Of a stretch of 64,000 bases of DNA, positions 3,101-63,410 are shown in pieces. Positions within the stretch are counted from its first letter, which is position 1. Every line of letters starts with the position of its first letter. The position numbers and the translations under genes are program-made. The DNA is taken from contig OZ038433.1 of the NCBI GenBank assembly GCA_964036275.1, positions 10,903,009 through 10,967,008 on the forward strand, read 5' to 3'. A model generated the notes under the pieces. The model did no database searches. It had not been told where the DNA came from and worked only from the letters and a program-made list of their open reading frames with translations. The stretch comes from Litoditis marina (lineage: Eukaryota; Nematoda; Chromadorea; Rhabditida; Rhabditidae).

Positions 3101-6100
3101 TAACTGAGTGAGAGGGGGGCTAAATTTGTTAATATCTTCATATTTACCTCAACTAAACTCCCCAAAACGAATTTTAAATTTTTGACTATGCAGTGTTCTA
3201 TCTTCAGACAGATCCACTAAAGGCAGCTGCAAACGGGTCCGCGGATCCATTGGGAGCCCTGACAGAGGAAGACGGAGGAGACACAGATGAACAGGTTGGG
3301 TACAGTAATCGTTTTGTCGACAAAATCATTCAGATGTGCTCATGCCTCTCAAATGAAGACACGTTTCAGTGTGAATTGAGGACTTTTCTCTCCTACTTTT
3401 ACGGACGTATTAGTCGTATGTGTGTTTCCGTTTGTTTTGATTGATTTTGATTGCAAAAGTGACAGGCATGTTGACCTTAGTTGGGCCAATTCTACAACTA
3501 ACCGGGTTTTCAGGTAACCTAACCCTTTTTTGGTAACCTCTTTTTCAGGTTACCTTGGTAGGCAACCTGGAAGTAACCTGAAACTAAAATCCGGTTACTG
3601 TCCGAACTAACGGTAAAAACAACATTTTGCGTTAGAAAAACAGGTAACCGGTTTTTCATTTCAGGTTACCAACCGGTTACCTACTGAGGTAACCTGAAAA
3701 ATAGGTTACCGAAAAACGGTTAGGTTACCTAAAAACCCGGTTAGATATAGAATTCACCCCTTAGTTGTCATCGCATTGTCTTGGTACCAGCCACCGTGAA
3801 CCGTATTTTCGGTTTAAGCCGATTTCCGTACGTTTCCATGTAACTTAATGCCTATTCAGATTGCTCGGATGACCATGAGTCCTAGTCGGGCGAAGTTCCT
3901 GGCCGAACACGAGTCTACTCCCTTCTCCAATGAAATCACGCCGAAACAGGAACGAAAGGTGGGAATTACATGATTGTTCGTACAAGCGTTTGTAGAATAT
4001 TCTAAATTTTTTAGTTTTTTCTTCATATTTAATGATTAGGTAGAAGTACTAAAATGTTGTTACCTTGTACTTCTCGGATTTGGTCGTTGTCGAGTTTCTC
4101 ATGAAGTGATTGTGAGTGTAATACAACGTGTTGTTGAATTTCTTACAATTTCGCTAAAAAGTAATCTACTGTTCGGCTGTGAGCAACTGTTGGGAATGGT
4201 TGATTAGTTTATCTGGAAGTATCATAGTTATCTAAAATTGTTATTCTGATGTTGTACGACAAAATCTTTATGCCCACTGTTTTCAGGGTAGTTTCCGCGG
4301 TGGTTGGCTGAAGGGCATTTCGAACAGTCCTCTCATGAAGATGCTCAGAAGTCAGACTTTCGGTAAGTTTTTGTCTGTTTCTCACGTACTTAGCCCTCAA
4401 TCGACTTGAAATAATGAATACATGTCTTTGTCACTTTCATGACGCTGAGACCAACAGTTGGGGCAGTTGTCGAAAATGTAGCCTTACGCTGTACATTCGA
4501 ATGAACTTATTCAAGGAAGGGCGTGTAATGCTCATTTTAAAGAAAGTTTCGCGACGTTGAATTCTATGTTTTGGATTGGGTTCATTTTTGAAATGAAATG
4601 CCATAATTTATAGTTTTTTTCTACGTGATATTCATATTTTCGTGCTATGCGAGCAGCTGGCACCAGCTTCTGGCGGACTTGGTGGTCCAGTCAGTCCACC
4701 TATCAGTTTTTTTTTCTGTTTTCGCGCAGCGTTCATTCACACTCTTCTCTATTGAGAAAGCTCGAATAATAATTTTATATCATTATTATTATTATTTTAT
4801 GTTAATATTATATTTCTTTCTAGAAAGCCCGAAACCGATGGACAGCAACCCCTCCCTGGATCCCCCGGTGATCACCGTCAGTCCCAGTCTCAACTCATTC
4901 GTCAGTCATATGAGAAAAGGATACGATGACGTCATCAAGGATGGTGAGTGGCAGATAGAGTAGAAAAGTAATAATAATATAGTATCAGACATCCACAACG
5001 TTTATTGACTGAAAAAATGGGAATTTACTGAGAACAATTATTTGCCAATTGCCAAATTTTGGTAGACTCTCAAAAATTGCGCAAATCAGTCTGGTGATAA
5101 ACTGTGTTGGACCCAGTCTCAACTCATTTGTCAGCCATATGAGAACAGTATATGATGACGTCATCAAGGACGTTTTACGAGCTAAATGAAGCCGACGTAT
5201 ACCAATTTTCTCATGCTGACCGGTATTCAGGCGTTTCGTCGAAACTTCGCTCGGGCGTCTCCTCGCTGGTTCACGAAGTTCGTAGTTTGAACAGATCCTA
5301 TGGGGCAATGGGAAGTGGCACGCTATTTGGCACAGATGACTCGGTTAGTATCATTGTTTTGCGTTTTTGATAAGATTTGTATCTTGAAGTCTATCTATTT
5401 AAACTTTGTACGTAATATAAGCTACATTCCGGGCAGTTTTCAAGAGTGGTTGTATGAATCTCGCAGTTTTGCTACTTAGGTTTGACTCGTTTATGCTCTC
5501 TGTTTCGTGTGATAAACATATGTGATATTGATAGGTTTAAAACCTTGAAACAGCGCGAAAGGAAACAATAAATATGTAAATCAATGTATATTTATTACAA
5601 TTCCAGACAGACGGCGATTCTGCGTGTCTGGCGGAGGATGACAGTGCCTTCCAGTTGGATTCCGGCCATACCGGATCGCTGTTGAGCGAGGCATGGTGGA
5701 TGGCTGAGGTTGGTTTTTATGATGATTGTCTCATGAATTAACCGTAACGTAACCGTATTTTTTTGGATCTCCACGAATCGTTCGAGAATAAACACATTTG
5801 TGCAGTCTATTGAATGCCTGGTATGCTAGAGATTGGGCCGTGTGAAAATGGGTTCAGCACACCGTCCTTTATATCGGATGATATGGTTCGTTCGTCTTAG
5901 GTTTTTAACTACAAAAATTGTATTTATTTAGAAGAATAGGCGCCCCATTATCCTTCCAGGTTCTGCAGCAACTGCGTCGCGAGGAGGAGCGGGAGCGTGT
6001 CAGCCAGGCGGCTGCCACGCAGCCGCCCGCGGCAGAGACGGAGGGAGACGTGTCGCCGCCGGACGGGGTGCTGGAGGTGACCCTATCCACTGCCACCCCC

Positions 6101-9100
6101 TGTCCGTTGTGTCACAGAGTAGTCTATGCGGAGGAGATTATGGCAGGGTGGAAGGTACGCGTACTGAAGTGGTCCGATTAGTCAGAAAACGGGATGTCTT
6201 TTCGCCCAAATCGGGAGAAATGACTTATTCATGATGCGAATATTTAATGAAAACCCTGGTGGGAAGGTAGGTGACACACTGACATAGTTTGGCAAAAAAA
6301 TCTTGTACGATAATTGTTGTTGGAATCGGGCATGTTTTATTTCATTATCGGTATAATTTGTCTCAAAGTGTCCCTTTTCAGGTAGACGACCAGAATATGA
6401 ACACGGTGTGTCCACATTGTGCTCCGACGGGATCAGATCCGGCCGAGAACAATGCTGTCAGTTATTTTTTTGATTAGCCAACGTCGAGTTTCGAGTCGTG
6501 TGCTGAGTTCAACTAACAACCCTAGTGCATGAAATTTTTTGAGGTAGTGAGGTAGAGGGGGTTATGAAATGATTCATAAAATGGGAAAAATAACATGACT
6601 GCTTCTCGGTGAAACAGGGGAAACATGGCACATTTGTCCATGTTAACAAGGAAGTATTTGATTTCCTGTTGAAGGTGTGAATGAACCGTAAGCTGCATGA
6701 TATATGTGGTAGACGAGTTGAAAATTGCGATTTGTTGAACTTGAAAATTCGAGTTATGGGTTTGGATCGACTCGAAAGTTTCCGATCTCGTTAGTGTTTC
6801 TCACGTATGTGCACACAACTTATCTGAAATTGGCAAGCAATATTTTGTTGACAGTTAGTGTCTTAGTATTGTATATTTGTTGACTCTGTTTGTTTTTTTA
6901 GGAGTTCGCTCCTCGTCTGACGGTCGAGTTCAAATGGAAGAATTCTGCACAGGGCAGCTGGTACCCGCCGGGTGGACTGGACAGCGACGTGGAGGTCAGT
7001 TGGGGCACATCGTTGGTGAATTCTATATCTAACCGGGTTTTCAAGTAACCTAACTCTTTTTTGGTAACCTATTTTTCAGGTAACCGGTTGGTAACCTAAA
7101 ATGAAAAACCGGGTTACCTGTTTTTCTAACGCAAAATGTGGTTTTTACCGTTAGTTTGAACGACAACGGATTTTAGTTTCAGGTTACTTTCAGGTTACCT
7201 ACCAAGGTAACCTCAAAGTTGAGTTACCAAAAAGGGTTAGGTTACCTAAAAACCCGGTTAATCGTAGAATTGGCCCACATCGTTCTCAGCTACAGCTTTA
7301 TCAAATGTGGAACTGGCGTCCTCGCTTTTGAACGCTCCGCATATGATTCGCGCGAAAATAAGCGCGACAAGCAGCGAAATACAGCTGTGATCAGAACGAA
7401 TTGCAGTGCGATTCAGTGTCCCGCCACGAAAACGTTGTGGACGGAGCTCAATACAAGTTTAATCACAAAAATTACTGCATGCTAGATCACCGTGGGGGGG
7501 TCCAGCAAGAAGTTTAGTCAGAAATCGCCGGGAAAGGGGAATCCATATTCGTAAACTAGACTATTTCTCAACGGTCATTCGCGTTTCCCTCCGTTCCGTA
7601 GCGTTATTGCCAGAGGGCTGTTCGTCTGAAATTTCGGGTTTGAATAATTTCCATACGAAATCATACGACCTCGGCCAAAACAGCGGAAGCGGACCATACA
7701 CCGCCACGGCTCGCACAACGATAGCATGCGGTTTTTAATTGGTACGAAAAAAGCTCATCTGTTTTTTTATTTTTTATTGAGCCGCGCAATCCCTTCCAAA
7801 CCACTAAATTCCAATGAACCGTGTTGTACCATGGATGGTTTCAGGGTCCGCCATCTGAGGTGCCCACGTCACATTCGTGTGATTCTCTCTCGGTTGCCTT
7901 TGTGAATCCCCTTGTGCTCAGAAGAGAACTGGAAACGCTACTTGCGTCGGATCTACACATTATTAAGGTAAAAACATTCTGCAATGTAGTTGTCTGATCA
8001 GTCAAAAATATACAGAAACTGACTACTTTTTGGCAATATTGAGAAAATGTGTTCATTCTTGATGAAAATTCACGGTTTCATGAAGTTTCCCATATTGGAA
8101 TCTTGAAACGGCTTTTTGGGGAAGTTTTTATCTGGCGGGTGTATTGGTAAGGTTGTAGAAGTATTTGATGAGTTCTATTTCGTTTATCTTTGTTTTCCGG
8201 GTGTAATTTTGTGGCTCATCGCTCATTTCTTTATTTCTAGGACAAGGCTCTCATGGAATCTCATCCTATCATTTTCTGGAATCTGATCTACTATCTGAGA
8301 AGACTTGGACTGCCCACTCATCTGTATAGGTTTGTTTTTGTTAGTCTACCGAAACGCACCATCACTGAACGTTCAGCAAATCCGTGTTTTGACAACAATT
8401 ATTTTCATTGCATGATTCGATTTTCTCTAATTTTGTATTTTCTGTTGGAGTTTGTTGGCTTTGCTCGAATAATGTATGTTTAGCAATAAGAAGAGTATTG
8501 ATCCTGTAGTAGAAAATTAGAAAAATGTAGTTTGATCTCTTTCAGTTGGATCGCCCCGCGCCATCATATTCGGTGTGTCTATGACCGTCCGTCTCTGCAC
8601 ACGGAATGCTCTCCGCTCTACTTCTCCAATCCGGATTATGAGGTAAACTTGTAGTTTTATATTTAACAAATGAACAAAATAGAGTTTTGCTTTTCGTCTC
8701 GCTGTCATTCATAGAGATGTACTGATTCGGGACCTCCACAAATGTAACAGTCAATATATCACCCTTTTCATGAAAATTCCGCAACATGGTGTGATTGTGC
8801 TGTAACTCTAATATCTCTGTGCTTGTTAGTAAGCACTTCATTTATCGAGAGCATAGAACATTCTCATAACTCGATAAAATACTCTGTTTGATCTATTTTC
8901 TTTGTTTTGTATTCCAAGGTATTTACAATTCAAGAACATTGTTATAACTGTATAATGAACTATGTTTGATCTATCTCTCTCACTCCTACAATCCAGGGTG
9001 TGCATGATGACTGTCTGTCATGTAACATACTTTTCTAAGAAAAATTAAGGTTAATTGTTATTATTACCTAATAATGTGAAATAAAAATGTAAGGGTAAAC

Positions 9101-10407
9101 AAATATAATAATATCTGCATTCTGTTCCAGGGTGTGCACGACGACTGTCCGAACATGCGATCCTCTGCGGTCTGGCGAAGTGTCACTCTCTCTGTACAGG
9201 AGAACAAACTATTCACCGCCTTGCAGACACTGATCAATGACAGTCGAAGGAAGACTCAGTCGGGACAAGTCACGTTGGGACCACATTTCCCGCTATTCAG
9301 GTAAGAATGGGAATTGGTTTGCAAAACTTGAAAATAAATCAGTCGACACGGACAGTCAGTCGGCAGTCAGTCAGTCGAATCAGTCGACATCATCATCAAA
9401 ATCAAAATCAGTCGACACGGACGAGCTGGAAGCAGTATATAAGCTGTCAACAAATTGCATAGAGCGCCCATCTTTCACAAATGATGTGAAAAATGATTGT
9501 CCTAGTTACCTAAACACAGGTAAAATAGTTCAATGTCAGGGCAACTAAAATGATCTTGCGTAACCCTAAACATGGTCATGATACTTTTGAACAAGTGATT
9601 ATTTATCTTGTTCATTGCGTTTCTGGCACTTTTCACTTCCAAAAATGATCGCAAGTTCCACGAAGATGCCGAAAATGAGCGTGGGTTAGTGCTATTTGGA
9701 CGGGGTATGTTATAGTCTGTTTCTCCAATCGATGTACTCCTACAGTAATCCGTCAATTAATCAAGGGGGTGGTTTCTGATGAAAAAGTCATTACTTTGGT
9801 TTCAAATTGTCAGAATTAGTAGTAGTAAACATGCAGAAGACACTATGAACATTTTGAGGCGTTCTGAATACGCTAATATAGTAAACTTTAACCTGGAAGT
9901 GTTAGCAGATTACTGTAGAGGGTTATAAATGGGTGGAACAAACTATACCTATGTATATAAATGATGAATAACATCTGTAGATGAATAATCTATGACGAAT
10001 GTAAATAATAGATGATAATTCATCGGTATTGGTACAGTTTCATCTCCTTTCAGGGACGTGCAATTCGCCAGCGTGACCAATATAGAGATTAAGGGTCTCT
10101 CTCTCTTCACTTCAGTAAAATACAAGTAACCGTATTTTGGGGAAATACGGTTACTTGTATTTGGTCACTGGTGTGTACCTACTTCACCTAAGATTTGTAC
10201 AATTTATTCTTCTCCAGGGACGTGCAATTCGCCAGCGTGGACATGTTTGGTCGTGCGCTGGTCCGCGACAACCTGGACCGCCAGTACCCGACGGAATTCA
10301 ATCGATTGCCCGTGAGAATTCGCGAGCTGATCCCCGCCCAAGACTATCCGCAGTCCGTTCTTCATAGAGCATGTAGGAAAGTATTCCTGCCTTTGGATTT
10401 GAACTGA
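158..10407 (+). CDS. DENND4 (Crag) homolog: DENND4/Crag-type Rab guanine nucleotide exchange factor, C-terminal part (5' end outside window)
   Basis: Exons: 158-219, 531-693, 1206-1405, 1711-1827, 2018-2142, 2440-2551, 2901-2978, 3208-3294, 3860-3958, 4287-4362, 4824-4943, 5231-5343, 5607-5708, 5960-6154, 6382-6456, 6902-6994, 7845-7967, 8241-8329, 8546-8642, 9131-9300, 10218-10407. All 20 joins keep phase, giving about 827 residues ending in RKVFLPLDLN. DENND4 proteins activate Rab10-type GTPases in exocytic and basolateral traffic. The DENN domains would lie upstream of the window. Visible here are a PPR-like helical stretch (exons 1711-2142: VLDRLEQSGVPLLDQVCYR, then QRAGLEQNAVTYGIYHRA), the SPSRAKFLAEHE motif typical of the family, a probable zinc ribbon (CPLC in exon 5960, CPHC in exon 6382), and the conserved C-terminal region from FAPRLTVEFKW onward. 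Several introns hold foldback repeats. Family assignment is from remembered vertebrate and fly sequences. The first exon is the least certain. Confidence 0.85.
897..1106. repeat. Two-copy tandem repeat, period about 105 bp, in a DENND4 intron
   Basis: The unit starting AAACAAACG at 897 recurs at about 1002 with only scattered substitutions. It contains GTAGGAAATAT and ATTCCGATATATAACTCAG in both copies. It shows no coding potential and looks like a recent local duplication. Confidence 0.85.
3481..3760. mobile_element. AACCGG foldback element, copy 1
   Basis: Ends are inverted: the left end has AATTCTAC followed by AACCGGGTTTT, and the right end has AAAACCCGG followed by ATATAGAATT. The whole element is a near palindrome built from GGTAACC-type blocks, about 280 bp, with no coding sequence. 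It resembles a MITE. It lies in the DENND4 intron before exon 3860. Confidence 0.85.
7014..7276. mobile_element. AACCGG foldback element, copy 2
   Basis: This has the same inverted ends and internal GGTAACC blocks as copy 1, in the opposite orientation. It begins about 20 bases after the splice donor at 6995 of DENND4. Confidence 0.85.
9711..9947. mobile_element. TATAGT-ended 237-bp MITE, copy 1
   Basis: It begins TATAGTCTGTTTC and ends AACAAACTATA. It is the same length as, and highly similar to, the copy at 14675-14911. It lies in the last DENND4 intron. Confidence 0.85.
10118..10162. repeat. Perfect 20-bp hairpin in the last DENND4 intron
   Basis: Left arm 10118-10137 (AAATACAAGTAACCGTATTT) is perfectly complementary to right arm 10143-10162 across a 5-base loop TGGGG. 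It lies between the acceptor-like echo at about 10052 and the true acceptor at 10217. Confidence 0.9.
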
Positions 10408-12021
10408 TCGACCAAACATACGAAAAGGAGTCTATTTTTGTTAAATAGTCGTGTAAAGTCTAGATTTTCCAACAAAAATGATTCAATTCTGCTAATTTTG
10501 GCGAAATCGGCGGCAAGACTAGCCACTATCCGTTCTGCATAGAGCGTGTAGGAAAGTATTCCTGCCGTTGGATTTGAACTGATTGACCAAACATACACTA
10601 GAACGTTATAGTTTTAGGACCTCTTCACACTTTTTTGTCTGCGGCAGATACATAGAGCAAAGTATAATCATTGATTGAGTGCAATGCGTACATAGACACG
10701 ATCTTTAACCATACTTTGCTCGATGTATCTATCACAGGCTAAGAAAGTCATGAAGGGACTCTAACGTGCGTACGTCATTTACATGAACTACTGTACTTTC
10801 CGATTTGTTTTCTATTTTTTCTAGTCTGGAAGGGGTTAATTATTTATTTTTCTACAAAAATGCATTTTTCTAACTGGCCGCTTCTTCAAAAGATTGTAGT
10901 ATGTGTACAATTTTCAGTCCCGTGTTTCCATTATACCTGATGAGTTCAATTGTACCATAATATTTAGCACAGTCATGTTTTTCTACGGTAGCTTTATTTT
11001 AAACAGTGTTGTGTTCTCATATGCTTGTGACCACCCTTCAATGTGATATCGATTTTCCGTGTGTTTTGATCTTCCCTTCACTTTTCCCTTTTCTCTTAGC
11101 GTTTATCGATCGTTTAGTTCACGGCGTTTAAACTCGGCTAAATTTTCGGAATGGGTTGCCTTATGTGCGTCGGCTGGGTTTTGAAATTTTCAAACGCGAA
11201 TTTTTGCGGGAAAGCGCCCATCGCTGACGTGTTTTGCGTGCTAAGCGCTGGTGCGGATTTGGTGCATAAAGAAAAGATCTATAATAAGGAAAAGCTATGT
11301 ATCTTATATAACTCTTATGGTATATATGAAAGCGTAAAATTATTCTTGTTTAAGAGAGGTAAGAATTATATAGAATAATGATCGTCTATCGAAATCACGT
11401 AAATTAAAATTTTGCGGCGCATTGAAATCGCGCTCCATTCGACGCGTTGCGGCGATCGCTTGGTTGCTTGTGACTTCACAGAAACTGAATGTATCGTGTC
11501 AAACGCCGTGAGTTCACTACTCCCTCTTTCCCATGATTTTTGGCAGACACATTTTTAGTTTTGTCTTTTGTTTTCCCGATTGTGGGTTGCTACTCTACTC
11601 ACTATCTCCCTCTTTCTCATGATTTTTGGTAAAAACACCCATTTTTATTTGTCTTTTGTTTTTTCCGATTGTGGGTTACTACTCACTACAACCCCTTTCC
11701 CTAAAATTTGGGAAAAAATACATCTTTAGTTTTGTCTTTTTGTTTTTTCTCTCCCCATTCTCTCTTGAGTTGCCATGTACGAGTCTTTGAGGGTTAATAT
11801 GATGAATTTCTCTAACATTTGATCGAATTTTGTGACCATAGCTAATTGAGATTGTATATGTTTTCTCCAGTAATAAATGAATCTTTTTCTAATCTGTTGC
11901 CGATTGATATTTTGTGTCGTCGATGGTGAAGTATACTTTTGACCCCTTATTCAGTAGGAAACCAGTTAATTATAATTATACGGTGAATTAAATTAATAAG
12001 GTAAATTGGTTTTTGTTAGGT
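10408..12021. other. Spacer between DENND4 and TSEN54
   Basis: Contains an echo of the DENND4 3' end (10524-10595) and T-rich repeats of TTTGTCTTTTGTTTT (11560-11740, three irregular units of about 80 bp). An AATAAA-type sequence lies near 11870. A 225-bp open stretch (11151-11378) has no recognisable family and is probably not a gene. A missed first TSEN54 exon could lie here. Confidence 0.5.
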
Positions 12022-15000: not shown

Positions 15001-17857
15001 TTTGAGGGTCAAAACGTGAAAACTCGAATTGATGCCTTGAAAATGTGGAAAACTCCAATCGATTAACTGTATCAATAGAATAGAGTAGAATAGAATAGTA
15101 TCAACTGTATCAAGTCTGTAAATTTTTTCCAGAAGGCTGAGCGTCTGAAGTCGTGTCGTCCCTACTATTATAATAAGGATGATAATAAGTGGATAATAAT
15201 GATAATAATTTATCAATCAGATATTTACAGAAAATTCTAACGGACCATGCTAATCGTCTACGAAGGATGTAGTTCTCAGAGTTGGTTCTTTCCAGAAGGC
15301 GGAGCGTCTGAAGTCGTGTCGTCCGCGCCACCGACCCCAGTTGGATCGACTGTCTAGCACATCGAAGAATTGGGCCGAGTTCAAGGTAGGACATATAATG
15401 ATGAATAGAATGAAAAGTGTATTCGGGATTGGACACGTGTCTTTCCACATTGGTGTATTGGTGTGGTACTCCAATTACATGCTATTGGAGATAGAGATAG
15501 ACGGTAATAGCCGGAAATTCCTAGGTAAATTTACTCCATTACGTGGATTCTAGGTGTTTATATATATTATACTCACCTTAATATTTCATCATCGCGTTAA
15601 CTAGTGTACATTCTAATATATCTTCTCTCCATTCAAGAAACGAAAGACGGAAATGGCACAGAAGGGAACTTGGGCGAGGGGACAGACGACGAATACGCAA
15701 GCTAGGTTTGTTTTGTCGTATGTGTCAATAATAATAAATGTAGTAATAATCATCGGAAATCGTGCTTCCCGGAAAACCCCTGAATTTTCGGGACAATTCA
15801 CTTTTCGGGGAGCGAACGGGGAAACATCGGGTAAAAAGTGAGGAGCAAACCCCGAACGTTTGGGGTTTTTCGGGGAAAAGGTGCGGAATTTGAGCGAACC
15901 CCGAAAATTCCCCGAAAAATATTCTCCTGTGATAATGATGTTGTATAACGCTATATGAACGTGGACAGAACGCGAATCCGCAGACTAGGTCTGTTCTAGA
16001 GTTCTCAATCAAGGTCAGAATTTCAAGGTTCGGAAGTTTACGAACTATCGAGTTTTGAGAATTTCGAGTCAAGTTTCTGAAGAGTTCCAGTTTCCGAAAA
16101 GTTTAGATTTTGAGTTTCGAGTTCGACTTTATTAACCCTAGGTCTGTTCATAGAATACAACAGCACTGTTCTCGTTTTTTTTTGTAATTAGATATCTAGA
16201 ATATCTGTTTTTTTTCTGTATTGCGGGTGTTTTTGTTGAAAAAAAGACAGATTTCCAGGGAAAGATGAGTGGGAATCTCAGTTATAATAGTTTTTTCATA
16301 ATAGTTTCCCTTGCAGAAGTCCTCCTTCCTCTCCACTGTCATTCGTGGATTTCGATGTCTATCTACCGCAGCGGTACACGCATTCTGTCGCCACTCAGCC
16401 CAGTTTCCGCGTCAAATGTTTCGAGTGAGCATCTTTTTTCTAAACTTATTTCAAGTTCTCAAAGTTGTTGGTTGATACATGCATATTGTTTTTAGTGTAT
16501 ATTCAATCGCATTTTACTCCTGCAATGGTTGCTCAGAAAGGCGGGCACCTTCTATGTAAACAATTTTCTTTAGGAAGGTTTATAATTTTGTAATGGTTTG
16601 TAATTAAGTATGTCGGTCCTCTGAAAATCAGTATGTCCAAGCCATTCACTAAGCTAAATGTAAACTTATCCTTGTTTGTTGACCGGTTATTATATTACCT
16701 ATTTTATATTAGTACGTAACCTGGAAGTAGCCTGAAACTAACATCTGGGTACCATCGAAACTAGGGTTGTTAACCTTCTGGTTGTTAATCCACTGTAAAG
16801 ATAAAACCGGCGTTCTACTACAGTAGCGACACCGTACTACCACCGTCTTACTGGTAGTGTTACTGCAGTATCGCTAGCCGTTAAACGGTAGTAGTACGGT
16901 GTCGCTACTGCAATAAAACGCCAGTAAAACTGTAGTTCCACTGCAGTAAAACAGCAGTACAATTATTTCGAATTATCGAATATAAAACACTTAAAAATTA
17001 TTTATTTTATAAAACAAAATTTAATTATCCTTTTATGGCCCTTCTAGTATCTAGTCCCCACGTACTAAATACTGAGCTCGCATAAGAGGTGAAAAGTACC
17101 TCAAACTTGGGTAATTAAACCAAAAACAGCCAGAAGCCTGCAGAGCAGTCTCCCAGACATCCGTATCTAGTATAGGTATCACATCTGGTATTAGATATCT
17201 AGTTCAGTTTTGAAGTTACTTGAGATATATAACCGATTTACTGGTAGTAATCGTCATTCAACGTTACCAGAAGTTTACTACTGAATCGCGGGACGTTTAC
17301 GACCATATCACCACAGTTTAACTATTACTACCGTTTTACCAGTGTCTTAACTGTCGGCTAGAAGTTCCTATGATCGAGTTCAAAATGTCGAGTTTTGGAA
17401 AATTTCGAGTTATTGAGTTTTATGAATTTTCGAGTTTTCGAGTTTTGCGAATTGTGAGAAAATCGAGTCGTCGAGTGTTCGAGTTTCAAAAATCGAGTGT
17501 TTGAGTTTCAAAAATCGAGTGTTCGAGCTTCGAAAATCGAGCTTTCGAGTTGCACAGACAGAAAAATTTCCAGTTTTTTAGTTTCATAACTAAAAATTGG
17601 AATTTTCACATTTTTAGCTTTAACTTTAAAAAACCTTCATTTCTGGAGAAACATAGGGTTGCAAAAAACCCGGTGAGATATAGAATTCACCCAATTTCAG
17701 TGCTCGCAACGGCCCGCTAGATCTGGTGCAGCTGGGATCGACTGGCGACAGTCTGTTGGTGGCAGCCGTGGTGGAACAGGGAAAGACGAGTTTCATTCGA
17801 ACGAGCGGAGAATCGATCGATATCAATCGATATTTGAAGGAGGAAGAAATGAAGTAG
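12022..17857 (+). CDS. TSEN54 homolog: TSEN54-like tRNA-splicing endonuclease structural subunit
   Basis: Exons: 12022-12071, 12562-12625, 12973-13056, 13611-13756, 14111-14207, 14388-14492, 15296-15385, 15638-15705, 16317-16424, 17701-17857. Phases match at every join, giving about 322 residues. Sen54 is a non-catalytic scaffold of the heterotetrameric endonuclease that removes tRNA introns in the nucleus. The N-terminal domain is recognised by LATMG...WPEEAVYLME and YEGYRILQDKNIPWHRY followed by VYATLKRAGFVVVRP (human: FSHLKRLGYVVRRF). The C-terminal fold is recognised by FVDFDVYLP and SLLVAAVVEQGKTSFI (human: IFDVYQAD, PLIFALVDHGDISF). A linker motif SKNWAEFKKRK parallels the human WREYKELLQRRQ. 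The protein is shorter than the human one (about 526) and lacks an obvious basic N-terminus. The chosen ATG sits 2 bases after TTTTTGTTAG, a possible trans-splice acceptor, but an upstream exon cannot be excluded. The donor at 13057 (GTCCCG) is weak. Confidence 0.83.
12150..12330. repeat. GTTAAC-rich foldback repeat related in style to the AACCGG family
   Basis: Inverted blocks of TTAACCGCG, GTTAACC and GGTTAAC form a near palindrome in the first TSEN54 intron. The layout parallels the AACCGG elements, but the sequence differs enough that it may be a separate family. Confidence 0.6.
12799..12882. repeat. CTCCCGGGAG foldback repeat
   Basis: CTCCCGGGAG occurs three times in about 84 bp. The arms CTCCCGGGAGCG plus TTTTTGG and CCAAAAACGGTCCCGGGAG are nearly complementary around an AAATTT-rich centre. 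It lies in the TSEN54 intron before exon 12973. Confidence 0.8.
13424..13565. repeat. 140-bp dispersed repeat, copy 1
   Basis: It starts GTGAAAAGTAGGGGTCGCGA and runs to GAATTTTGAAGGA. It is nearly identical to 43366-43505, with no coding sequence supported. It lies just before the TSEN54 exon at 13611. Confidence 0.85.
14675..14911. mobile_element. TATAGT-ended 237-bp MITE, copy 2
   Basis: This has the same ends and internal sequence (CCTACAGTAATCCGTCAAT, GTAGTAGTAAACATGCA) as copy 1, and the same 237-bp length. It lies in a TSEN54 intron. A 40-bp fragment of the family is seen near 58428-58465. Confidence 0.85.
15757..15935. repeat. Foldback repeat rich in CGGGG/CCCCG
   Basis: TTTTCGGGG and CCCCGAAAA blocks are arranged in inverted order over about 180 bp. 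The right end reads CCCCGAAAATTCCCCGAAAA. It lies in the TSEN54 intron after exon 15638. Confidence 0.6.
16806..16925. repeat. Foldback repeat with TACTACCGT blocks
   Basis: CAGTAGCGACACCGTACTAC on the left is mirrored by GTAGTACGGTGTCGCTACTG on the right, an almost perfect 20-bp inverted repeat about 60 bp apart. Related CAGTA blocks continue to about 17345. Confidence 0.85.
17370..17560. repeat. Degenerate TCGAGTTT satellite-like tract
   Basis: Many irregular repeats of TTCGAGTT and AAAATCGAGT occur in the last TSEN54 intron. Similar shorter tracts are seen near 16062-16130 and 55090-55210. Confidence 0.75.
17664..17692. repeat. Terminal fragment of an AACCGG element next to a splice acceptor
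   Basis: The sequence AAAACCCGG...ATATAGAATTCACCC matches the right end of the AACCGG family. It stops 8 bases before the acceptor of the last TSEN54 exon at 17701. A second decayed fragment lies around 16680-16765 in the same intron. Confidence 0.7.
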
Positions 17858-28146: not shown

Positions 28147-28377
28147 GGGCTGACGATCTGAAAGAATTCTACAAGAACCATATATGTTCTCTTAGCAACA
28201 AGAAAAGGTTTTTTTTCGCATTGAATATTAACTCTGTTCTCAGACAAAAACTTGTGTCTCTTCTACATCTTTATAAATCGACCGCTCTTACACAGACAGT
28301 CTCCGACAGTTACCACCCGTGATATAATTCGTTTCAACCATTGAAGGAGAAGCCATTTACAGTAAATTCAAGTGGCT

Positions 28378-28545
28378 CAGAGCGATTAGCGCCATTTCTC
28401 TGCAATTGGCCAGCTACAAAAACGAGAGAGCATACAGGTCAATGACGCGCAGACTGGCTAAGACAGTCTGCGTCTCTCTGACCTGCACACTCTCTCGTTC
28501 AGCCAATAAAAACGTGGCTGGCCAATTCGCTGGGAGTTGTCTGAG
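28378..28545. mobile_element. GGCCAGC foldback MITE, copy 1
   Basis: A long imperfect palindrome: CAATTGGCCAGCTACAAAAnCGAGAGA and its inverse, with TCTCTCTGACCTGCAC in the right arm, about 170 bp. It lies between the phosphatase and GTF2H4 genes. Confidence 0.85.
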
Positions 28546-40420: not shown

Positions 40421-40489
<69 letters not shown>

Positions 40490-47135: not shown

Positions 47136-50100
47136 ATGGCTGCCGTTCCAGCCACTAAATTTCTCACAGACCGCGTGGCAGTGGTCTCCGCCTCGACGAA
47201 GGTTAGTTTAGTAGTTTTCTATTTTATTCGTAGTTTTGTTAACTTTCGATATCGCGGGGCTCTGCGGAACACAGAAAATTGCGTTTGTCAGTTGCGCGGA
47301 AAAATGAATATAATTTGCACAAACTCCTGCGATCGGAAATTACATGTAATATATCCGCGAAAAGTCAACACGTTGGTCGAATTAAATTTCCAGTTGAGAT
47401 ATTATTTATACTCTAAAATCTTCGAATTTGAGTGTTTTTGTTCGATAACCCGTCATTTTGTTGCTCATAGAAACTGATTATTGCTGCAAAAAACATGTTT
47501 TCATAAGTGGTGGTTCTGTAGTTAAGAACTGCATAGCGCTTTCAGTCGAGTTGTTTTGAACATTCGTTAAATCTTATGTTTTAAGGGTATCGGGTATTCT
47601 ATTGCCAAACGACTAGGCCTTGACGGAGCCTCAGTCGTGGTAAATAGTAGAAAGCCGAAAAATGTCGAGGTTAGTTGGTTAGTGCATTCGTGAACTGCAT
47701 ACAAAAAAGGTGTGTAGACGTCGCAGCTCCAATGTTTAACGTGGGATTTCTCGTGTATTTTTTTTACCCCGACAAACTTGTCCGATTAGCCGAAAATACC
47801 GAGAAACGGGTTACTTTTCTGCGTAACTTGAATTTGTACACTTTTTTGGTTCTCAAATAGAATGAAAGTTTGAAATTTCACGTGTTTTAATTGAAAAACG
47901 GTTGCCGTTGCTGGAAGCATAGTACGATAATACCTAACACTTCTTTCCGAAAACTGTTTTTTATTGATTGTCTTTGTCTTCAGGAGGCGGTTTCCGCCCT
48001 TCGCATGGAGGGTATCGAGGCTTCTGGTGTGGTCGGACACGTGGGAGTTGGAGAGGACAGAAAGAAGCTCATCGACTATGCCGTTGAGAAGTAAGACTTT
48101 CCTGGGGAATACACTGGATTCTGGAAGCAGAAAGCACGTGAATTGGACTGTGGAAAGCACGTGAATACTCGGACCCGAACCGACTACCCCCGTCCATTTA
48201 CGATGTTGTTTATTCTACAAAATCAACGAGACACCATGGTCAGCATTGTCTTACTGTACTCTAGTCCACTTCATGCACCCACTTGTTTTGACTGGTTTTC
48301 TGGGTTTCTCTCGTATAGTTATGACTGAAGGAAGCAATGTTGGTGCATGTTGTTGGTACCCTAAACAGTCATAGGAGAAGTTCTTATTTGTAACCCTTTT
48401 GTTTCCAGATACGGTAAATTGGACATCCTAGTGTCGAATGCTGCCGCCAACCCCCACTACGGAGATATGCTCAGCATCTCTGACGCACAATGGGACAAGC
48501 TGGTCAAGACTAATGTGAGTTTGTGTACTTGCTGTAGTAGAACATAATCATAATCTCGCTCGTTTGGCTTCAAGGACAGTTTAGAGATGAACTTACTGGC
48601 AAGTAGACTTTGTAGTGAAACGGTCATTTTTCTCTATAATTTTAAATCTTATTTGTCATTAGATTTTCAGTAGTTATATACATGTCACCGCACGATCATC
48701 GCAAACATGAGGTCATTGAGTTGTTGTATCTGTGAATAAGTTCTCATGAAAAGGTTTTAATTTTCAGGCAGAGCATCCCTCAGGTGAATTAGAAATTAGT
48801 CCATCTCACATTTTGTTAATTTGCAGGTAAAAGCCTCGCTGGCCCTCTCTCAGGAGGCCGCTCCCCACCTGGAGGCAACCGGAAGGGGGAATGTGGTCTT
48901 CGTCTCCTCCGTTTCCGGATTCGCGCCCATGGACGGACTCGGCGGATATTCCGTAATGAAGACGGCACTAGTGGGACTCAACAAGTCACTCAGTCTCAGT
49001 CTGGCGAGGAAGAACATCAGAGTCAACGCCATTGCGCCGGGTTAGTGGAGCGTTTCATTGTTTTCCATTAAAAATTGGCCAAATTTTTTTAAAGGTGCTA
49101 CATTTTTTTTTCGAAATTGCCAGAATTTCGACTTGTTGAATCTAATATCGGGAATGAGGCATGAATACTGCCCTAGTCGGACTCGAAAACTCACTCAGTC
49201 TCAGTCTGGCCAGGAAGAACGTCAGTCAATGCAATTGCACCGGGTTAGTAAACTTCTGAGACAGGAAAATGTAGATTTGGTCCGATCTCATAGTTATCCC
49301 TAAAAAATTGTCGAGAGGGGGCGTTTCTTCAAATTTCTGCCCTTTTAAAACTTGGTCTACGCGATTTCACCGGATTCGTGGATAAGTGCATATTGTTCCT
49401 GTTTTCCATCAAATTTTGGCCATATTTTCGTGAATTTTAGGTCGGGAAATAGGCTTTCTTAGATTTGCTGGGTGCTTATTCAAGGTACTGATCATGAGTA
49501 CCATCATGATTTACTAGGATTGAAAAGTTAGATGTTAAAAAATGGCTTCAAACTTTACCATTCATATTTTACATTTCAACTTGTACTCAAGATTAAGGCA
49601 TGAATTAAGAATAGTTCCTTAATAGTACAGACACTTATCCATAAACCTCTGAGAATGTGATTACGAAATTCCAACTTCACATCGAATTGTCTTTCAATGA
49701 TTCTCGTGGTCTGATTCTTATCTCTCCATCTTTTGAGTGCGCCCATAAATCTGTCCACATGCGTTGCACGTGAACTACCAGCTAGTCACATGATAGATCT
49801 TTTTGTTGATAGATGAAGCCAGGAAAACAAGTTCTTGCATCATTCGATTATTCGATATAAAGTTTGATCAGGAAATCCATGCAAAGCTCGCATGTTCATT
49901 GCACTAGGGTTACAGTGTGAAAGGGGATTATAATTTTGGAAAAAAGGTGGCTGTTGATGGACGAGAAGGAGCTTGGAGCTTCAGTCTTCATGTATTTGGT
50001 TGAGGTTGAAATTGTAATGAACTGCTCTTGAAAAACGAAATAAGTTTTTGTTGTTCGAATAATAGTCAATTCACATACAATTATGGTATGCCTGTTCTTG

Positions 50101-50908
50101 AAAAATGAGTCCCTTTTCCGTTTTTTGAGCCGAAAGATCTACTTTGCTGATGGGTATTTAAATGCATAAATGGTATTTTGTCAGAATAAGATTCGTTGTG
50201 GAAGTATATTATGAGTGTGGGATATATATATATATATAATATAAAGAATATAATCACACACGTCTCGATGAAATGTTTTTTTTAATCTCAACTGTTCCAG
50301 GCATAATCCGAACGGACTTCAGCGAGGTTCTCTACGCGAACGAGATTGAGCACCAGAACTGGCTGCGACAGATTCCCCTGCGAAGGATCGGAATGGCCGA
50401 CGAATGCGCCGGAGCAGTCTCCTTCCTGGTTAGTTATGAGCACATACCAGTACGATATGATGGCTATTCCACAAAAGGGAGCCTTTTTCTTGAATACGTA
50501 CAACTTTTCGAAAAAATAGGCAATTTTTCCCGATATTTCTGCTCTATCGGCAATATCACATAGCATAAATGTGCAGAAAGAACATTATTATGTCGATAAT
50601 TTCACCAGTGTCCTTTAAATCTGTTTAAAACGAACGACAGACTTGAGTAGCTAGTTCCTCTTTCTCTTGAGAGATGTGATTTAAAACTGCTATATGTCAT
50701 TTCAAGCATTTCCTGGTTCTGATAGTTCAATTAAATTAAAACCATGTTTGATTATGAGGTTATGTGCTCGAACATGGGCGAAGTACTTGAATTTATCGCT
50801 CTAGTTTTCGTTTGTCTTAGGCCAGTCTTCCTTCAGGTGTCAGACGAGGCCTGCTACATTTCGGGCGAGACGATCGGAATCAATGGTGGAATGCAGGCCC
50901 GCGTCTAA
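47136..50908 (+). CDS. DHRS4 homolog: DHRS4-like short-chain dehydrogenase/reductase
   Basis: Exons: 47136-47201, 47586-47669, 47984-48090, 48409-48514, 48827-49040, 50301-50428, 50837-50908. Phases agree, giving about 258 residues. DHRS4 enzymes reduce ketones and retinal using NADPH, commonly in peroxisomes. The classical SDR pattern is visible: nucleotide-binding loop STKGIGYSIAKRLG, NAA-type motif SNAAANP, catalytic Ser about 149 in VSSVSG, Tyr about 162 and Lys about 166 in YSVMK, then NAIAPGIIRTDF and the C-terminal YISGETIGINGGM. The C-terminus reads ARV, not the SRL/SKL peroxisomal signal expected of DHRS4, so location is uncertain. TTGTTGCAG lies 15 bases before the ATG, a likely trans-splice acceptor. 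The start is about 0.8 kb from that of CNOT11 on the other strand, so the two may share a promoter region. The long intron at 49041-50300 begins with a frameshifted copy of the preceding exon end. Confidence 0.92.
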
Positions 50909-52053: not shown

Positions 52054-55000
52054 TTACACGAATTGATATGCACAGACGGGGAGGAGGGTCTTGTTACAGT
52101 CCGTGTTTATCCAGCTGTCATCATTCAGTACATAGGCTACGCAGTTGGCGCCATCGGCTGGTCGCGGATAACCTGAATTTAAAAATTGAGATCAAACCGT
52201 TGTGGACACCGTACCACCGAAACCACCGATTTTGTAAGGGGCGGGGTTTGGCGAGGGGCCAGCCAGTCTGCGTATCATTGATCTACACACTCTCTCAACC
52301 GCTGGCAAGTAATCAACGATCGCTCGCCCCGCATCGCTCAATCAATCGAACCCTCTGCTGTCTTTATGGGGAAAATGGCGACTATAGTGAGTGCCAAATT
52401 TATAAATTTCTGTCTCTCGCCGGAATCGAACCTGCAAGCAAAAGTTTATAGTGGCAGGGCGCTAACCACTGCGCTATTAGAACACCTAACGGGAGAGCTG
52501 TGAAATTGAAGACATGTGTGCGTACACAGCGGAAAGTGAGATATACAGTACCCTCCCGCCTTTCCGTTGGCGACAACTATATATAAGTAGGTTGAACTGG
52601 AAATTGGATTTTTTGTTTGGTCTAAGAACTTGAATAGAGTAGTTTGCAATTTCTTGAAACTGGATTATGTAGATTGTAGATTGGTTCGGAACTTGGATTA
52701 TGTAGTTAGGTGTTGAACCTAAATTATGTAGTTTGTGTTTTGTTCGTTAACATGAATCGCACAGTTTGTAGTTTGGTTTTGAACTTGGATTATGTAGTTT
52801 GTTCATGATCCGGAATAATATGAAGTGTAGTTAGGTATTGAGCCTGCATTTTGTAGTTGGAACAAAATGGAACCCACCACTTCTCCAATCGGTATAGGAA
52901 GAACTGTCGAATAGCTATTCCCCTGTGTTTGTGAGTTTGACCCCGTTTCTTTTCGATCATCACGACGTGTTTCGAGATCAAACTACAACCCATCCATCGT
53001 GACCCTGTATACCAACCCGCCCTCCAATTGGTATAAGTCGTGTTGTCGAATAGCTGTCCGTCCGCCCAAGTCCATGGGTCATTCTCGGATTTCCTCATCA
53101 GACCGATCCAGAACATTCCATAACTCGTCTCCGCCACCAGACCTGAAGGATGACCAAATAATTCTTGTGGTTTGATCTCATAGGATCGAACTACAAACAC
53201 ATCGGAATAGGGTAACATATACCGTGTTGGGGAATAGGCGAGCTTCGAAAAAAGTTAACCATCTGAATTGCTAGCAATTTGAGTTTGCCGGCGAATTGTA
53301 TAGTGAGTGCCAAATTTATAAGTTTCAGTCTTTCGCCGGAATCGAACCTGCGAGCAAAAGATTCGTATCAGGGCGCTCACCACTGCGCTACTAGAGCACA
53401 TAACGAGCAAGCTTTGGAATCAAAGAGATGTGTGCGTACACAGCGAAAGGTGAGATATACAGTACCCTCCCGCCTCTCCGTTGGCAACGACTATACTGAC
53501 ATACCAGAGGTACCGAGTGCTAGAACTTTCTGGCTCTACAAATATGGTGAAATAACAAACATTGATTTGTTTATGCATGTTGAGAAAAATGACAAAAAAA
53601 CTTGCTCGAAACTTTGCCCATCTCCTCAGAGCTTTGAACCGATGTGAGGGTAACAGTCTTCCGATTAGGAGTTTCCTCGCACACATCCAAGGCCTGCGAA
53701 AAAGTTTTCAGGTCATCGTCAACCTAAAATGAGAAAATCAAAATTTTCATTACGAAAAACTAAGAAAAATTGAAGTTGTTCTCTTGGTTTTTGAATTCCT
53801 GTCAAAAACTCAGAGGAAAGATGAGATAGGAACGGTTTCTTCAAATGTATGATTATACAAAAGCGTTTCAACCACTTTTAAGAAAAATAATTTTGAATTT
53901 TGAGATTTGGAACGAAGTGTGTATTGAGGTTGCGACTCCACCTACCTTGTAACATTTCGAGTTGTCCAAGTCACGATAGGACGTGAAATTTGGAGTGGAA
54001 CATCTGAAATTAGGTTAAATCAACTATCAACAAACTACCATTTGAATTTTTGATTTGATTTTTGAGAAGACTTGAAAATTTTGATAGGAAATTTTTGGGT
54101 TTAGGTCGGTATATAAAGTGGTCACCATTGAATTCATCTTAGGTACACATTATTTTTTCGTAATTCAAACGCAGGATGATGAAACTACAAACTATAGTTC
54201 CGGTCATTCGCACTGAGACTTGGCAGCGTGCCAATGAATATTCCTGGCTATTTTTCACCACTTTTTTCAAAAAACTCCGACTCGTGCGCAGGGCGAAGCG
54301 CTGCGCAGATTAGTTTTTGATTCTAGGTATTGCGGGCTTTGAAAACGGGTCGATTGGAGTTTTCTCCGTTATTTGTGAATTTTTTTATATGAAAGAAGAA
54401 AGAGGTAAATCTCTGTTAGCGGTTGTCCAGTTTCATACCAACACGTAAATATGAAAAGTTTCTGGAAAACTTATGTTAGCTCTTAGAAATATTAATGCAA
54501 AAGTTTTGGCGCAATGCCAATGAGTCTCAGTGCGAATGCTCAGACAACTTCTTGCCAATTAGCAAGCCACTTTTGTAGCGGCCTCAACGAGAGTGTGCAG
54601 GTCAGAGAGACGCAGACTGTCTGAGCCTGTCTGCGGCCTCATTGACCCGCGTGCTCTCTCGCATATGTAGCTTGCTAATCACAGAAAATTGGCGCCAATG
54701 TTTCTGAGTGAAACGAACAATACAATACTATTATATTATAGACAGTTTCACTCACAGCTGATTTTCGAATGCAGGTCTGGTCGGGTTGAGCGGTGTGGGT
54801 GGCACTTCGGAGGGTCCCTGTAATTTAACTAGTAACCACTACGAGTCAAACGTGAGATGATCGCGACAATGTCGTTGACGTCTCAGTTTTGACTGTTGTT
54901 TATCAGCCTGCGTCTCCTCATAACCTATGCTATTTCCATGAGTTAAAGTTGTTACGGCTGGCGACATTGTCGTTGCTGTCTCAATTTCGACTCAGTCGGC

Positions 55001-62208: not shown

Positions 62209-62243
<35 letters not shown>

Positions 62244-63410
62244 TAGAAAGAGAGAAAACGCACCCAACTGATCGAAGTTCGCCCCGCTTTGGTCGTCCCA
62301 GATCCAGGCGGTTCCGTTGTTGACGAAGCCGATGAACGCCTCACCGGCAGAGTGCTCGTCGATCACCGCTAGAATAACAGAATAGTTGTATTCTTCTCTC
62401 TCTTTTTTCTCTCTCTCTCTTTCTATCTCTTACTCTTTTTCTTTCTCTCACTCTCTTTCTCTCTTTCTCTCTCTCTCTCTCTCTTCTTTCTCTCTTTCTC
62501 CTTCTCTCTCACTATCTCTCTTCTTTCTTCCTGCTTTCTCTGTTCCTTTCTCTCTCTAGCTCTCCATCTCTCCATCTCTCCCTCTGTATCTTTTTCTTCA
62601 TTCTCTCTCTCTCCCTCTAATCCTCCCACCCTTTGCCAAGTCATTCTCCGACCCTACCGTCAAAAAACTCACTTTCTCACAAAAAATCTCACTTTCTCAC
62701 CACTTTTTTCACTTTCTCACCAAAATACCTACTTTCTCATGAAAAATCCTCACTTTCTTACAAAAAATCTTACTTCTGCATACAAAACATCTTACCTTTG
62801 CCAAATCATACTCTGACTCTTTGCAGATAGAAACCATTGAGAGTCCGTTGTGGTCTTTATATTGTTCTTATTTTGTTATATTGTCTTTTATATAATATAT
62901 TATTTTTACATTATATTAATAATTTAAATTAGTTGTCCCCACCTTTGCCAAGTCATTCTCCGATTCCTTGTGAATAGAAACCATCGAAAGTCCGTTGGCG
63001 GTACACAAATTCCATCATCCTCATAGAAAAGCTTACTCCCCCCCCCACGTTCCTCACTTTTTTCAACGAAAATTCTTACTATCTGACAAAAACCCTCACT
63101 TTCTCACAGAAAAACCTCACTTTCTCACAGAAAAACCGCACTTTCTCACAAAAATCCTCAATTTCTTACAAAAAATCTTACCTTTCGCCAAGTCATTCTC
63201 CGACTCTTTGTGAATAGAAACTACCGAAAGTCCGTTGGCGGTGCACAAGTCCCTCCCGTCAAAGTAGTTATTTGGAGGACATAGATAGATACACGAATTA
63301 TTGGTGTAGATCTGGGCAAAACATCTCCCTAAGAGCCCTGAGGGCATCGGACATGACGTCATCAATTGGAATGACGTCATCAGTCCGATCAATACCGATA
63401 GAAGTAACAT
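52054..63410 (-). CDS. clec-like: Secreted C-type lectin/von Willebrand A domain protein (nematode CLEC type)
   Basis: Exons in transcript order: 63182-63410, 62264-62368, 62014-62058, 60911-60996, 60503-60586, 60152-60267, probable exon about 58875-59000, 57922-58004, 56874-57011, possible exon near 56690-56790, 55896-55999, 54756-54817, 53946-54003, 53594-53723, 53017-53142, 52054-52172. A signal peptide (MLLLSVLIGLMTS) is followed by a first CTLD (LCTANGLSVVSIHKES; EAFIGFVNNGTAWIW) and a VWA domain from TVLVDSSIYST to LLHVANFSQMDNLVDQVYS. Next come a CTLD end (MWHPTDCYAQRHIICQ), a Pro-rich linker, and a fuller CTLD (KCYKVDDD, FWIGLMRKSENDPWTWADG, NWRAGYPRPADGANCVAYV, WINTDCNKTLLPVCA). CTCCAG directly precedes the ATG. 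An AATAAA overlaps the stop. Phases agree at both ends but not between 60152 and 55999, where exons are missing or misdrawn and many repeats are inserted. Similar nematode proteins are linked to gut immunity; the ligand is unknown. Confidence 0.75.
52383..52581 (-). mobile_element. TATAGT-ended element with tRNA-like core, copy 3
   Basis: On the minus strand it matches the copy at 19962-20161, including both boxes and the CCGCTGTGTACGCACAC segment. It lies in the CLEC last intron. Confidence 0.75.
52600..52860. repeat. Irregular tandem repeat of TTGGATTATGTAGTTTG
   Basis: At least six variants of AACTTGGATTATGTAGTTTG, spaced about 35-45 bp, in the CLEC last intron. Confidence 0.8.
53299..53495 (-). 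mobile_element. TATAGT-ended element with tRNA-like core, copy 4
   Basis: Very similar to the copies at 52383 and 59260, in the same orientation. It lies in the CLEC intron between exons 53017 and 53594. Confidence 0.75.
54536..54712. mobile_element. GGCCAGC foldback MITE, copy 4
   Basis: Same family, in the CLEC intron between exons 53946 and 54756. The left arm is diverged (GCCAATTAGCAAGCC). Confidence 0.8.
55338..55501. mobile_element. CCCGGC foldback element, copy 2
   Basis: Inverted ends GTACGTATGCTAGAAGATCC and GGATCTTCTAGCATACGTAC are perfect. The centre has ATCCCGGCGGGAT. It lies in the CLEC intron between exons 54756 and 55896. Confidence 0.9.
55610..55740. repeat. CACGTGAAACATGTTAAACA repeat family, inverted copy
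   Basis: Inverse orientation relative to 42228. Contains ATTCTAATGAGGCATCGTGC and TTTTTCACGTGACTGTG. Facing copy 56040-56160, it forms an inverted pair flanking CLEC exon 55896-55999. Confidence 0.8.
56035..56160. repeat. CACGTGAAACATGTTAAACA repeat family, copy
   Basis: Starts near the TGTTAGTCAATTGGA end and runs to CTCATTAGAATG. It pairs in inverse orientation with 55610-55740. Confidence 0.8.
56368..56545. mobile_element. GGCCAGC foldback MITE, copy 5
   Basis: Same family, in the CLEC gene region, with both arms well preserved. Confidence 0.85.
57056..57172. repeat. (CT)-rich tract in the CLEC gene
   Basis: TCTCTCTCT-rich sequence, with spaced CTCT blocks, lies just upstream (in transcript sense) of exon 56874-57011. 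Confidence 0.85.
57290..57405. repeat. CACGTGAAACATGTTAAACA repeat family, copy
   Basis: Contains AGTCACGTGAAACATGTTAA and GATGCCTCATTAGAATG. Lies in a CLEC intron. Confidence 0.8.
57531..57692. mobile_element. GGCCAGC foldback MITE, copy 6
   Basis: Same family, CLEC intron, closest to the copy at 28895. Confidence 0.85.
58720..58875. mobile_element. GGCCAGC foldback MITE, copy 7, abutting a CLEC exon
   Basis: Same family. Its right end (58872) touches the downstream edge of the probable CLEC exon near 58875-59000, where no normal splice donor is seen. Confidence 0.8.
59260..59462 (-). mobile_element. TATAGT-ended element with tRNA-like core, copy 5
   Basis: Same family and orientation as the copies at 52383 and 53299. 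The left end is TATAGTGAGTG with a short extra TATAGTG. It lies in a CLEC intron. Confidence 0.75.
59828..59955. repeat. CACGTGAAACATGTTAAACA repeat family, shortened copy
   Basis: Starts at CTATACTGTTAGTCAATTG. The central AACATGTTAAAC block is mostly lost. Confidence 0.7.
60375..60440. repeat. (CT)n tract in the CLEC gene
   Basis: About 65 bp of CTCTCT, between exons 60152 and 60503. Confidence 0.9.
61032..61315 (-). mobile_element. Possible 3' end of a decayed non-LTR retrotransposon
   Basis: On the minus strand about 280 bp of non-repetitive sequence end in AATCAATCAATCAATCAA, a microsatellite-like tail seen on some CR1/RTE-type elements. No reverse transcriptase remnant is visible, so this is a guess from the tail alone. 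A similar short pentamer tail (ATACA repeats) lies at 715-732. Confidence 0.3.
61409..61642. mobile_element. TATAGT-ended MITE with CCTACTGAGACTCCTACAG arms, copy 2
   Basis: This has the same inverted arms as the copy at 20717-20978 and shared interior (CTCGTATATT-like and CATGAACCACATTTT-like segments in inverse order). Ends are TATAGTC and ACTATA. It lies in a CLEC intron. Confidence 0.8.
61821..61990. mobile_element. CCCGGC foldback element, copy 3
   Basis: Inverted ends AGTACGTATGCTA and TAGCATACGTACT, with the same ATCCCGGCGGGAT centre. It lies in a CLEC intron, 23 bp from exon 62014-62058. Confidence 0.9.
62098..62255. repeat. (GA)n tract flanking CLEC exon 62264-62368, left side
   Basis: About 150 bp of GAGAGA-rich sequence with short interruptions. 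It ends 8 bp from the exon. It is complementary to the CT tract on the exon's other side. Confidence 0.9.
62389..62605. repeat. (CT)n tract flanking CLEC exon 62264-62368, right side
   Basis: About 215 bp of CTCTCT/TTTCTC sequence starting 20 bp from the exon edge. It is complementary in sense to the GA tract at 62098-62255. Confidence 0.9.
62640..63180. repeat. ACTTTCTCAC tandem array in a CLEC intron
   Basis: Many irregular copies of AAAAnCTCACTTTCTCACA occur at 62665-62790 and 63050-63175, with two copies of the end of CLEC exon 1 embedded (62793-62850 and 62940-63011). Confidence 0.8.
63354..63379. other. Two CRE-like palindromes inside the CLEC signal-peptide coding sequence
   Basis: TGACGTCA occurs at 63354-63361 and again at 63372-63379, both encoding part of the signal peptide. 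The octamer is the cAMP-response/ATF palindrome, but codon repetition (MTS twice) is enough to explain it. Confidence 0.35.

Follow-up and report, generated by a model that had tools for sequence, protein, structure and literature searches.

Introns in parts of this genome contain second copies of one edge of a neighbouring exon, reaching up to and including its splice site; we refer to these copies as echoes. They are probably the decaying leftovers of short direct tandem duplications that spanned splice junctions. The window, i.e., the whole 64,000-nucleotide stretch of DNA that was analysed, sits on a 55.7-Mb contig within a 261.8-Mb genome. A CCT4 protein joined by hand from the same genome shares 93% identity with Auanema, 91-92% with several strongylids and 95% with one environmental sequence; judging from these identities, the genome looks like that of a clade V nematode.

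The genes concerned were named in different ways. GTF2H4 was named through orthologue alignment. A CNOT11 domain is found at 37869-38027, on the same strand as the echo at 42685-42731, and the exon at 42943-43080 in this region, taken alone, matched no family. The DHRS4-like gene is a short-chain dehydrogenase by domain (the label "DHRS4" comes from an earlier, sequence-only reading of this DNA), and a Lectin_C domain was found in the C-type lectin gene. Pfam searches with three exon joins of the window's first gene matched nothing. Elsewhere in the genome, the 10-kb stretch L005 was shown by its domains to contain an EDC4 gene. Except in GTF2H4, CCT4 and the DHRS4-like gene, exons were predicted from codon score, reading frame and splice consensus, with a coding score trained on 1318 codons that included some of the tested exons, and most exon/intron junctions were placed by eye. 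The echoes of the window and some of their sources are as follows.

4883..4943, plus strand: 3' end of an exon predicted from codon score and reading frame, the source of the next echo
5112..5172, plus strand: donor-side echo of 4883-4943, 55/61 identical
8992..9022, plus strand: acceptor-side echo of an exon starting at about 9131
10051..10075, plus strand: acceptor-side echo of the exon edge 10215-10239, 25/25 identical
10339..10421, plus strand: predicted exon end with intron, copy 1 of a spaced direct duplication (intron homology z 18)
10514..10596, plus strand: copy 2 of 10339-10421, 90% identical
15123..15161, plus strand: acceptor-side echo of 15286-15324, 37/39 identical
31393..31415, minus strand: donor-side echo of the GTF2H4 exon 10 end (31551-31573), 23/23 identical
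32642..32704, minus strand: donor-side echo of the GTF2H4 exon 8 end (32775-32838)
33046..33094, minus strand: acceptor-side echo of the GTF2H4 exon 8 start (32928-32962), encoding FLLTPLFWHLYS versus FFLTPLLWHLSS
34093..34138, minus strand: donor-side echo of the GTF2H4 exon 5 end (34204-34239), with intron homology
42685..42731, minus strand: donor-side echo of 42937-42983, CNOT11 region
49161..49249, plus strand: donor-side echo of the DHRS4-like exon end 48956-49046, in which 2 nt are deleted
49355..49428, plus strand: second, weaker echo, of 49022-49087, 69% identical, about 45 bp of intron included
52871..52916, minus strand: echo of 53014-53055, C-type lectin gene
62794..62850, minus strand: C-type lectin exon edge, one among several partial copies
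62941..63013, minus strand: further lectin exon-edge copy, best partner 63180-63253 (89%)
1503..1562, plus strand: echo-like copy of 1352-1411, absent from the earlier list, its source being of uncertain coding status

Two further features adjoin echoes in this list. An open frame at 5140-5348 directly follows the echo at 5112-5172 and is a possible next exon after the one ending at 4943, and a 45-bp near-perfect palindrome (10118-10162, 89%) lies within the spacer between the echo at 10051-10075 and its exon and matches nowhere else in the genome.

All 13 echoes listed in the sequence-only reading exist as direct repeats. Each has a direct partner no more than 450 bp away (scores 18-58.8) and outscores every one of its 200 shuffles (z 6.6-35.2), whereas inverted matches of the same 13 score only 7-13. 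A score of at least 20 was reached by 12 of the 13, and by 5.6% (direct) and 3.9% (inverted) of 1200 pieces of 55 bases drawn at random from the window, a background that reflects the repeats the window contains. Self-BLAST recovered most of the listed pairs, and the likeness of the peptides NPLYETPSAID and NPLYDTPTAID was confirmed in the sequence. Further cases are present beyond the earlier list, for example 10339/10514 and 1352-1411/1503-1562. One assignment had to be changed: 33046-33094 had been called a donor-side echo, and orthologue alignment makes it an acceptor-side echo of the GTF2H4 exon starting at 32962. Direct orientation also prevails more widely: 254 kb yielded 32 direct and 2 inverted pairs with offsets below 300 bp and at least 36 bits, overlapping and palindromic pairs (76 and 61) having been set aside, and one shuffled set gave 0 direct and 1 inverted pair in the short-offset search. 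Exon edges had 18 direct and 2 inverted matches, with 0 at a distant control. The offsets of 19 exon-edge cases, entered by hand, range from 51 to 252 bp with a median of 166 bp.

Echoes are concentrated in few places. The sequence-only reading had placed them in every gene and proposed a genome-wide habit; as stated, this is refuted, because only 2 of the 16 scanned loci bear them. A scan of 236 edges of codon-score segments in these loci found echoes at 18: at 11 of the 88 edges in the window (three of them doubtful, 28423 and 28944 being repeat copies and 1202 uncertain), at 7 of the 28 edges of EDC4, and at none of the 120 edges across the 14 other loci. The distribution remains uneven when the three doubtful rows are removed (Fisher p 1.4e-5). 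These rates are lower bounds, since the scan missed the listed echoes 31393, 33046, 52869 and 62794-63013. Six loci had no usable edge in the edge scan; L001, L002 and L024 were excluded from the scans, and L025 entered only the 242-query scan described below and the search for local pairs next to EDC4. Self-BLAST of the CCT4 gene, which has at least 12 coding pieces, detected no direct pair. The 6 kb adjoining the EDC4 stretch contain three local direct pairs with offsets of 139-308 bp; the tendency therefore looks regional, yet two echo-bearing loci are too few as proof. Non-coding direct pairs of similar offset are likewise denser in the echo-bearing loci (13 in 80 kb) than in seven echo-free gene loci (2 in 60.7 kb; p=0.019), a comparison in which both locus lists were picked by hand and 18 near-edge hits were entered where the segment scan gives 17.

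Other repeats were seen as well. Adjacent non-coding tandem duplications within the size range of the echo offsets occur at L016 2916-3272 (offset 177 bp, 91%) and L003 3654-3937 (offset 142 bp, 80%), and in the window a stretch lacking coding score holds a 106-bp tandem duplication at 896-1114, whose two copies are 92% alike. Copies of a palindromic element roughly 270 bp long, which is likely a miniature inverted-repeat transposon, lie at 3483-3759, 7012-7278, 25411-25685, 35517-35780 and 38988-39181, and further repeat families are present at 28376-28545 and 55336-55505.

The position of the echoed block within its exon is highly regular. Whole exon segments were compared with both of their flanks and the best hit per side was kept; 242 queries gave 21 hits, 17 of them usable after the removal of two transposon-like hits and two that link CCT4 exons with each other. 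The block in every one of the 17 lies 0-26 nt from the segment edge facing the echo and 32-137 nt from the far edge, where the smallest distances mean little because segment edges are fuzzy. No source at the far edge or in the exon interior was found among these hits, and none of them extends to the far exon edge, as duplication of a whole exon with both splice sites and an open frame would.

How far the similarity continues into the intron varies. The sequence-only reading had it cover, in almost all cases, only the coding edge and the splice site; this is true of most pairs, but 18-50 bp of intron is shared in others: about 50 bp at 10339/10514, about 38 bp at L005 2529/2699, 18 bp at L005 4549/4715 and about 45 bp, gapped, at 49022/49355 (all with junctions from consensus). 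The L005 stretch 1287-1541, upstream of an EDC4 exon start, holds acceptor-side copies, two clear and one weaker, that share both intron and exon. The intron share of the block averages 27% over 18 entries, which differs from random block ends (KS p=2e-4, with entry 34207 misaligned and some junctions a few bases off). Intron halves could be aligned in 6 of the 17 pairs at p<0.05, where about 1 is expected by chance and where the junction of L005 2592 is about 10 bases off; the homology is colinear for L005 4606 and 8721. In the remaining 11 pairs intron homology was not significant, including the young-looking 10217 (25/25), 31558 (23/23) and 15296 (37/39). Simulated decay at a divergence of 0.33, our own estimate from synonymous counts, gave a power to detect the intron half of 51, 88 or 100%, depending on the indel rate. 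Thus, either indels were frequent and the echoes vary in age, or a different origin or mode of persistence applies to some echoes. Several short near-identical echoes stop at the splice site without intron homology; the blocks 10051, 15123 and 31393 are the hardest cases for tandem duplication.

Echo and exon differ mainly at third codon positions, as the sequence-only reading had noticed: 11, 14 and 48 differences fall at positions 1, 2 and 3 (591 sites in 16 pairs). Synonymous differences number 42.5 and replacements 30.5, with 36 transitions and 37 transversions. The synonymous share, 42.5/73 = 0.58, exceeds the 0.42 expected under a permissive neutral model, in which a neutral echo lies beside an exon changing only synonymously (kappa 2, p=0.005; p 0.0006-0.027 across kappa 1 to 4). 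Therefore, an echo with no coding role would already show some third-position bias, though not all of what is observed, and the excess suggests some constraint on the echoes. On the other hand, at least 3 of the 16 echoes are broken: the one at L005 8343-8442 has an in-frame stop, the DHRS4-like echo has its 2-nt deletion, and another such deletion, read by eye, lies in L005 6636. The GTF2H4 exon 8 echo has replaced three conserved residues, an alanine and a tyrosine that are invariant across the six orthologues shown and a serine shared by five of them. It has an aspartate like the exon of its own species, where the six orthologues have glutamate, and is therefore probably younger than those orthologue splits.

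The DHRS4-like gene offers a view of splicing, limited to one transcript of one gene. An mRNA-derived retrocopy, either a processed pseudogene or a retrogene, lies at L024 1232-2661 (G000:C4:36857232-36858661) and is 90-98% identical to the exons. It fuses exon 48827-49041 straight to 50291-50429, with the echo absent, and the remaining exons are joined too, save for unmatched stretches of about 28 and about 183 nt. Near C4:36857502 the retrocopy agrees, by eye, with the echo against the exon at two third-position bases; thus, some of the differences between echo and exon arose in the exon.

We propose the following course of events. A direct tandem duplication with a unit of roughly 50-250 bp would start within an exon and cross the junction into the intron (donor type), or start in the intron and end within the exon (acceptor type). 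The gene would stay functional, because the intact copy splices and the extra partial exon leaves with the intron. A duplication confined to an exon would disrupt the protein and disappear, and this would account for all the echoes found deriving from the facing exon edge. The extra copy and the duplicated intron would then decay, and the similarity between exon and echo would outlive that between the introns because selection holds the exon copy. The lectin exon and L005 1287-1541 each have an array of at least three copies, with intron included in the case of L005. Among the three options the sequence-only reading had offered, a decayed exon-duplication process fits best: it draws directly on the orientation of the pairs, the scale of their offsets, their near-edge position, the six cases of intron homology, the broken echoes and the absence of the echo from one retrocopy. 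For the other 11 pairs we infer a contiguous unit, and likewise the neutral fate of the copies and the mutational route, namely the type of break repair that produces tandem duplications in nematode germ lines. Against this reading stand those same 11 pairs, the low intron share, the synonymous excess and the mostly greater length of published helq-1 duplications. All in all, the echoes are a real, locally dense case of a mutation that most likely belongs to a known kind, visible where selection preserves exon edges.

A role for the echoes themselves would account for some of what tandem duplication leaves unexplained. As decoy splice sites, poison mini-exons or minor alternative exons, they would keep the exon edge and splice site under selection while the surrounding intron saturates. 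The sharp ends of the short near-identical echoes, the missing intron homology and the synonymous differences agree with this, and 32642-32704 and 42685-42731 can be read by eye as in-phase mini-exons with AG before and GT after. We nevertheless consider it unlikely, as at least 3 of the 16 echoes have a stop or frameshift, the GTF2H4 exon 8 echo has changed residues that orthologues keep, and the DHRS4-like retrocopy skips its echo. These observations also leave without support the suggestion of a new kind of gene structure. A combined version, in which partial exon copies ending at splice sites came from junction-spanning microduplications and were then selected as decoys or poison mini-exons, forming a regional layer of splicing control, seems improbable. 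Some function is still conceivable given the synonymous excess and the sharp splice-site ends seen in the youngest echoes. Alternatively, break repair could have placed a copy of 20-45 bp from nearby in the intron as a short templated insertion, so that a contiguous unit never existed. Short exact blocks with unrelated flanks in non-coding DNA as well (L010 2491, L020 1152) and three inter-copy spacers that match nowhere else in the genome are in keeping with this; however, such insertion predicts interior and far-edge sources, which were not seen, and the intron homology of six pairs also argues against it, so we rate it as quite unlikely. Copy-and-paste into introns was dropped as the main route for the same lack of exon-interior sources among the 17 hits.

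Tandem placement of diverged haplotypes by the assembler, the third option offered earlier, deserved attention, since like exons with unlike introns and a third-position bias are what two diverged haplotypes would show; a homeolog origin was considered on the same grounds. Both the lectin and EDC4 exons have three or more copies rather than just two versions, the 120 edges elsewhere have no echoes, frames are broken, and similar pairs occur in non-coding DNA. Four exon queries gave no further copy in the genome beyond the echoes and one retrocopy, and matches of a chaperonin search group by eye into nine loci, with no second set. Nine chaperonin loci make up one haploid set. Copy number, single-copy loci and non-coding pairs thus led us to drop this origin, and an assembly artefact is very improbable.

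Three further ideas were pursued. A transposon with a long target-site duplication was rejected, as the spacers of the 4943, 10051 and 31393 cases match nowhere else in the genome in searches that skip very common words. A tendency of donor-type echoes to start at an exonic CAG fell from 5/8 to 5/12 (hand count), and the new case L005 5756 does not fit it; a GT near the end was present in both fresh acceptor-type cases, as predicted. Loss of HELQ was approached through the HTH_61 family, a search that should also detect Pol theta; with the domain read exon by exon there was no match, which has no bearing on HELQ loss.

Among the literature matches listed, splice-edge echoes are unreported. If their density extends beyond two loci, this would be a good nematode for watching selection filter short tandem duplications, because duplications that have lost their intron parts survive at exon edges. 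Should echoes turn out to be under selection, splicing regulation would have a new source in them. For annotation they are a warning, since gene prediction may take an echo for an exon when its splice site is good.

Searching with whole annotated exons, Ivanov and Pervouchine (2022, PMC9013439) found that 0.06% of exonic bases in C. elegans have a homologue of at least 80% identity within the same gene. Here, about 3.6% of 15.5 kb of predicted coding bases have a copy at 79% or more (lengths entered by hand), and 2.4% without the window, nearly all from one other locus; as the methods differ, the direction alone of this comparison is meaningful. Like the tandem exon duplications described there, echoes are extra exon copies in introns of the same gene, where such copies are often unannotated; unlike those whole exons, the piece copied here is an exon edge. 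Rogers-model intron gain, in which an AGGT-bearing exon segment is duplicated in tandem, also leaves exon-like sequence in an intron (as outlined in PMC4974935). In our case the junction pre-exists and no new intron is needed, and echoes with known exons sit mid-intron: the other exon is about 180-1040 bp from the echo in five pairs (four in GTF2H4, one DHRS4-like, with exons known from orthologues or the retrocopy). Abutment of the echo on the opposite splice site, as in the Rogers model, is absent in the five tested pairs; in the 4943 case a possible exon follows directly. The 168 new introns reported from Caenorhabditis, with no source identified for them (PMC9169325), are neither for nor against any reading of the echoes.

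The closest likeness is to duplications made by break repair. The tandem duplications that arise in the germ line of C. elegans helq-1 mutants measure about 100 bp to 10 kb (median about 1 kb), and their junctions now and then carry templated insertions (PMC8654963). These and the duplications in mouse and human cells (PMC8355091) are direct head-to-tail copies, as the echoes are; the published ones are fresh mutations, whereas the echoes are decayed, shorter and mostly without their intron half, and would owe their mutational route to such repair by analogy. Set beside these systems, the process looks ordinary in kind and unusually dense in places.
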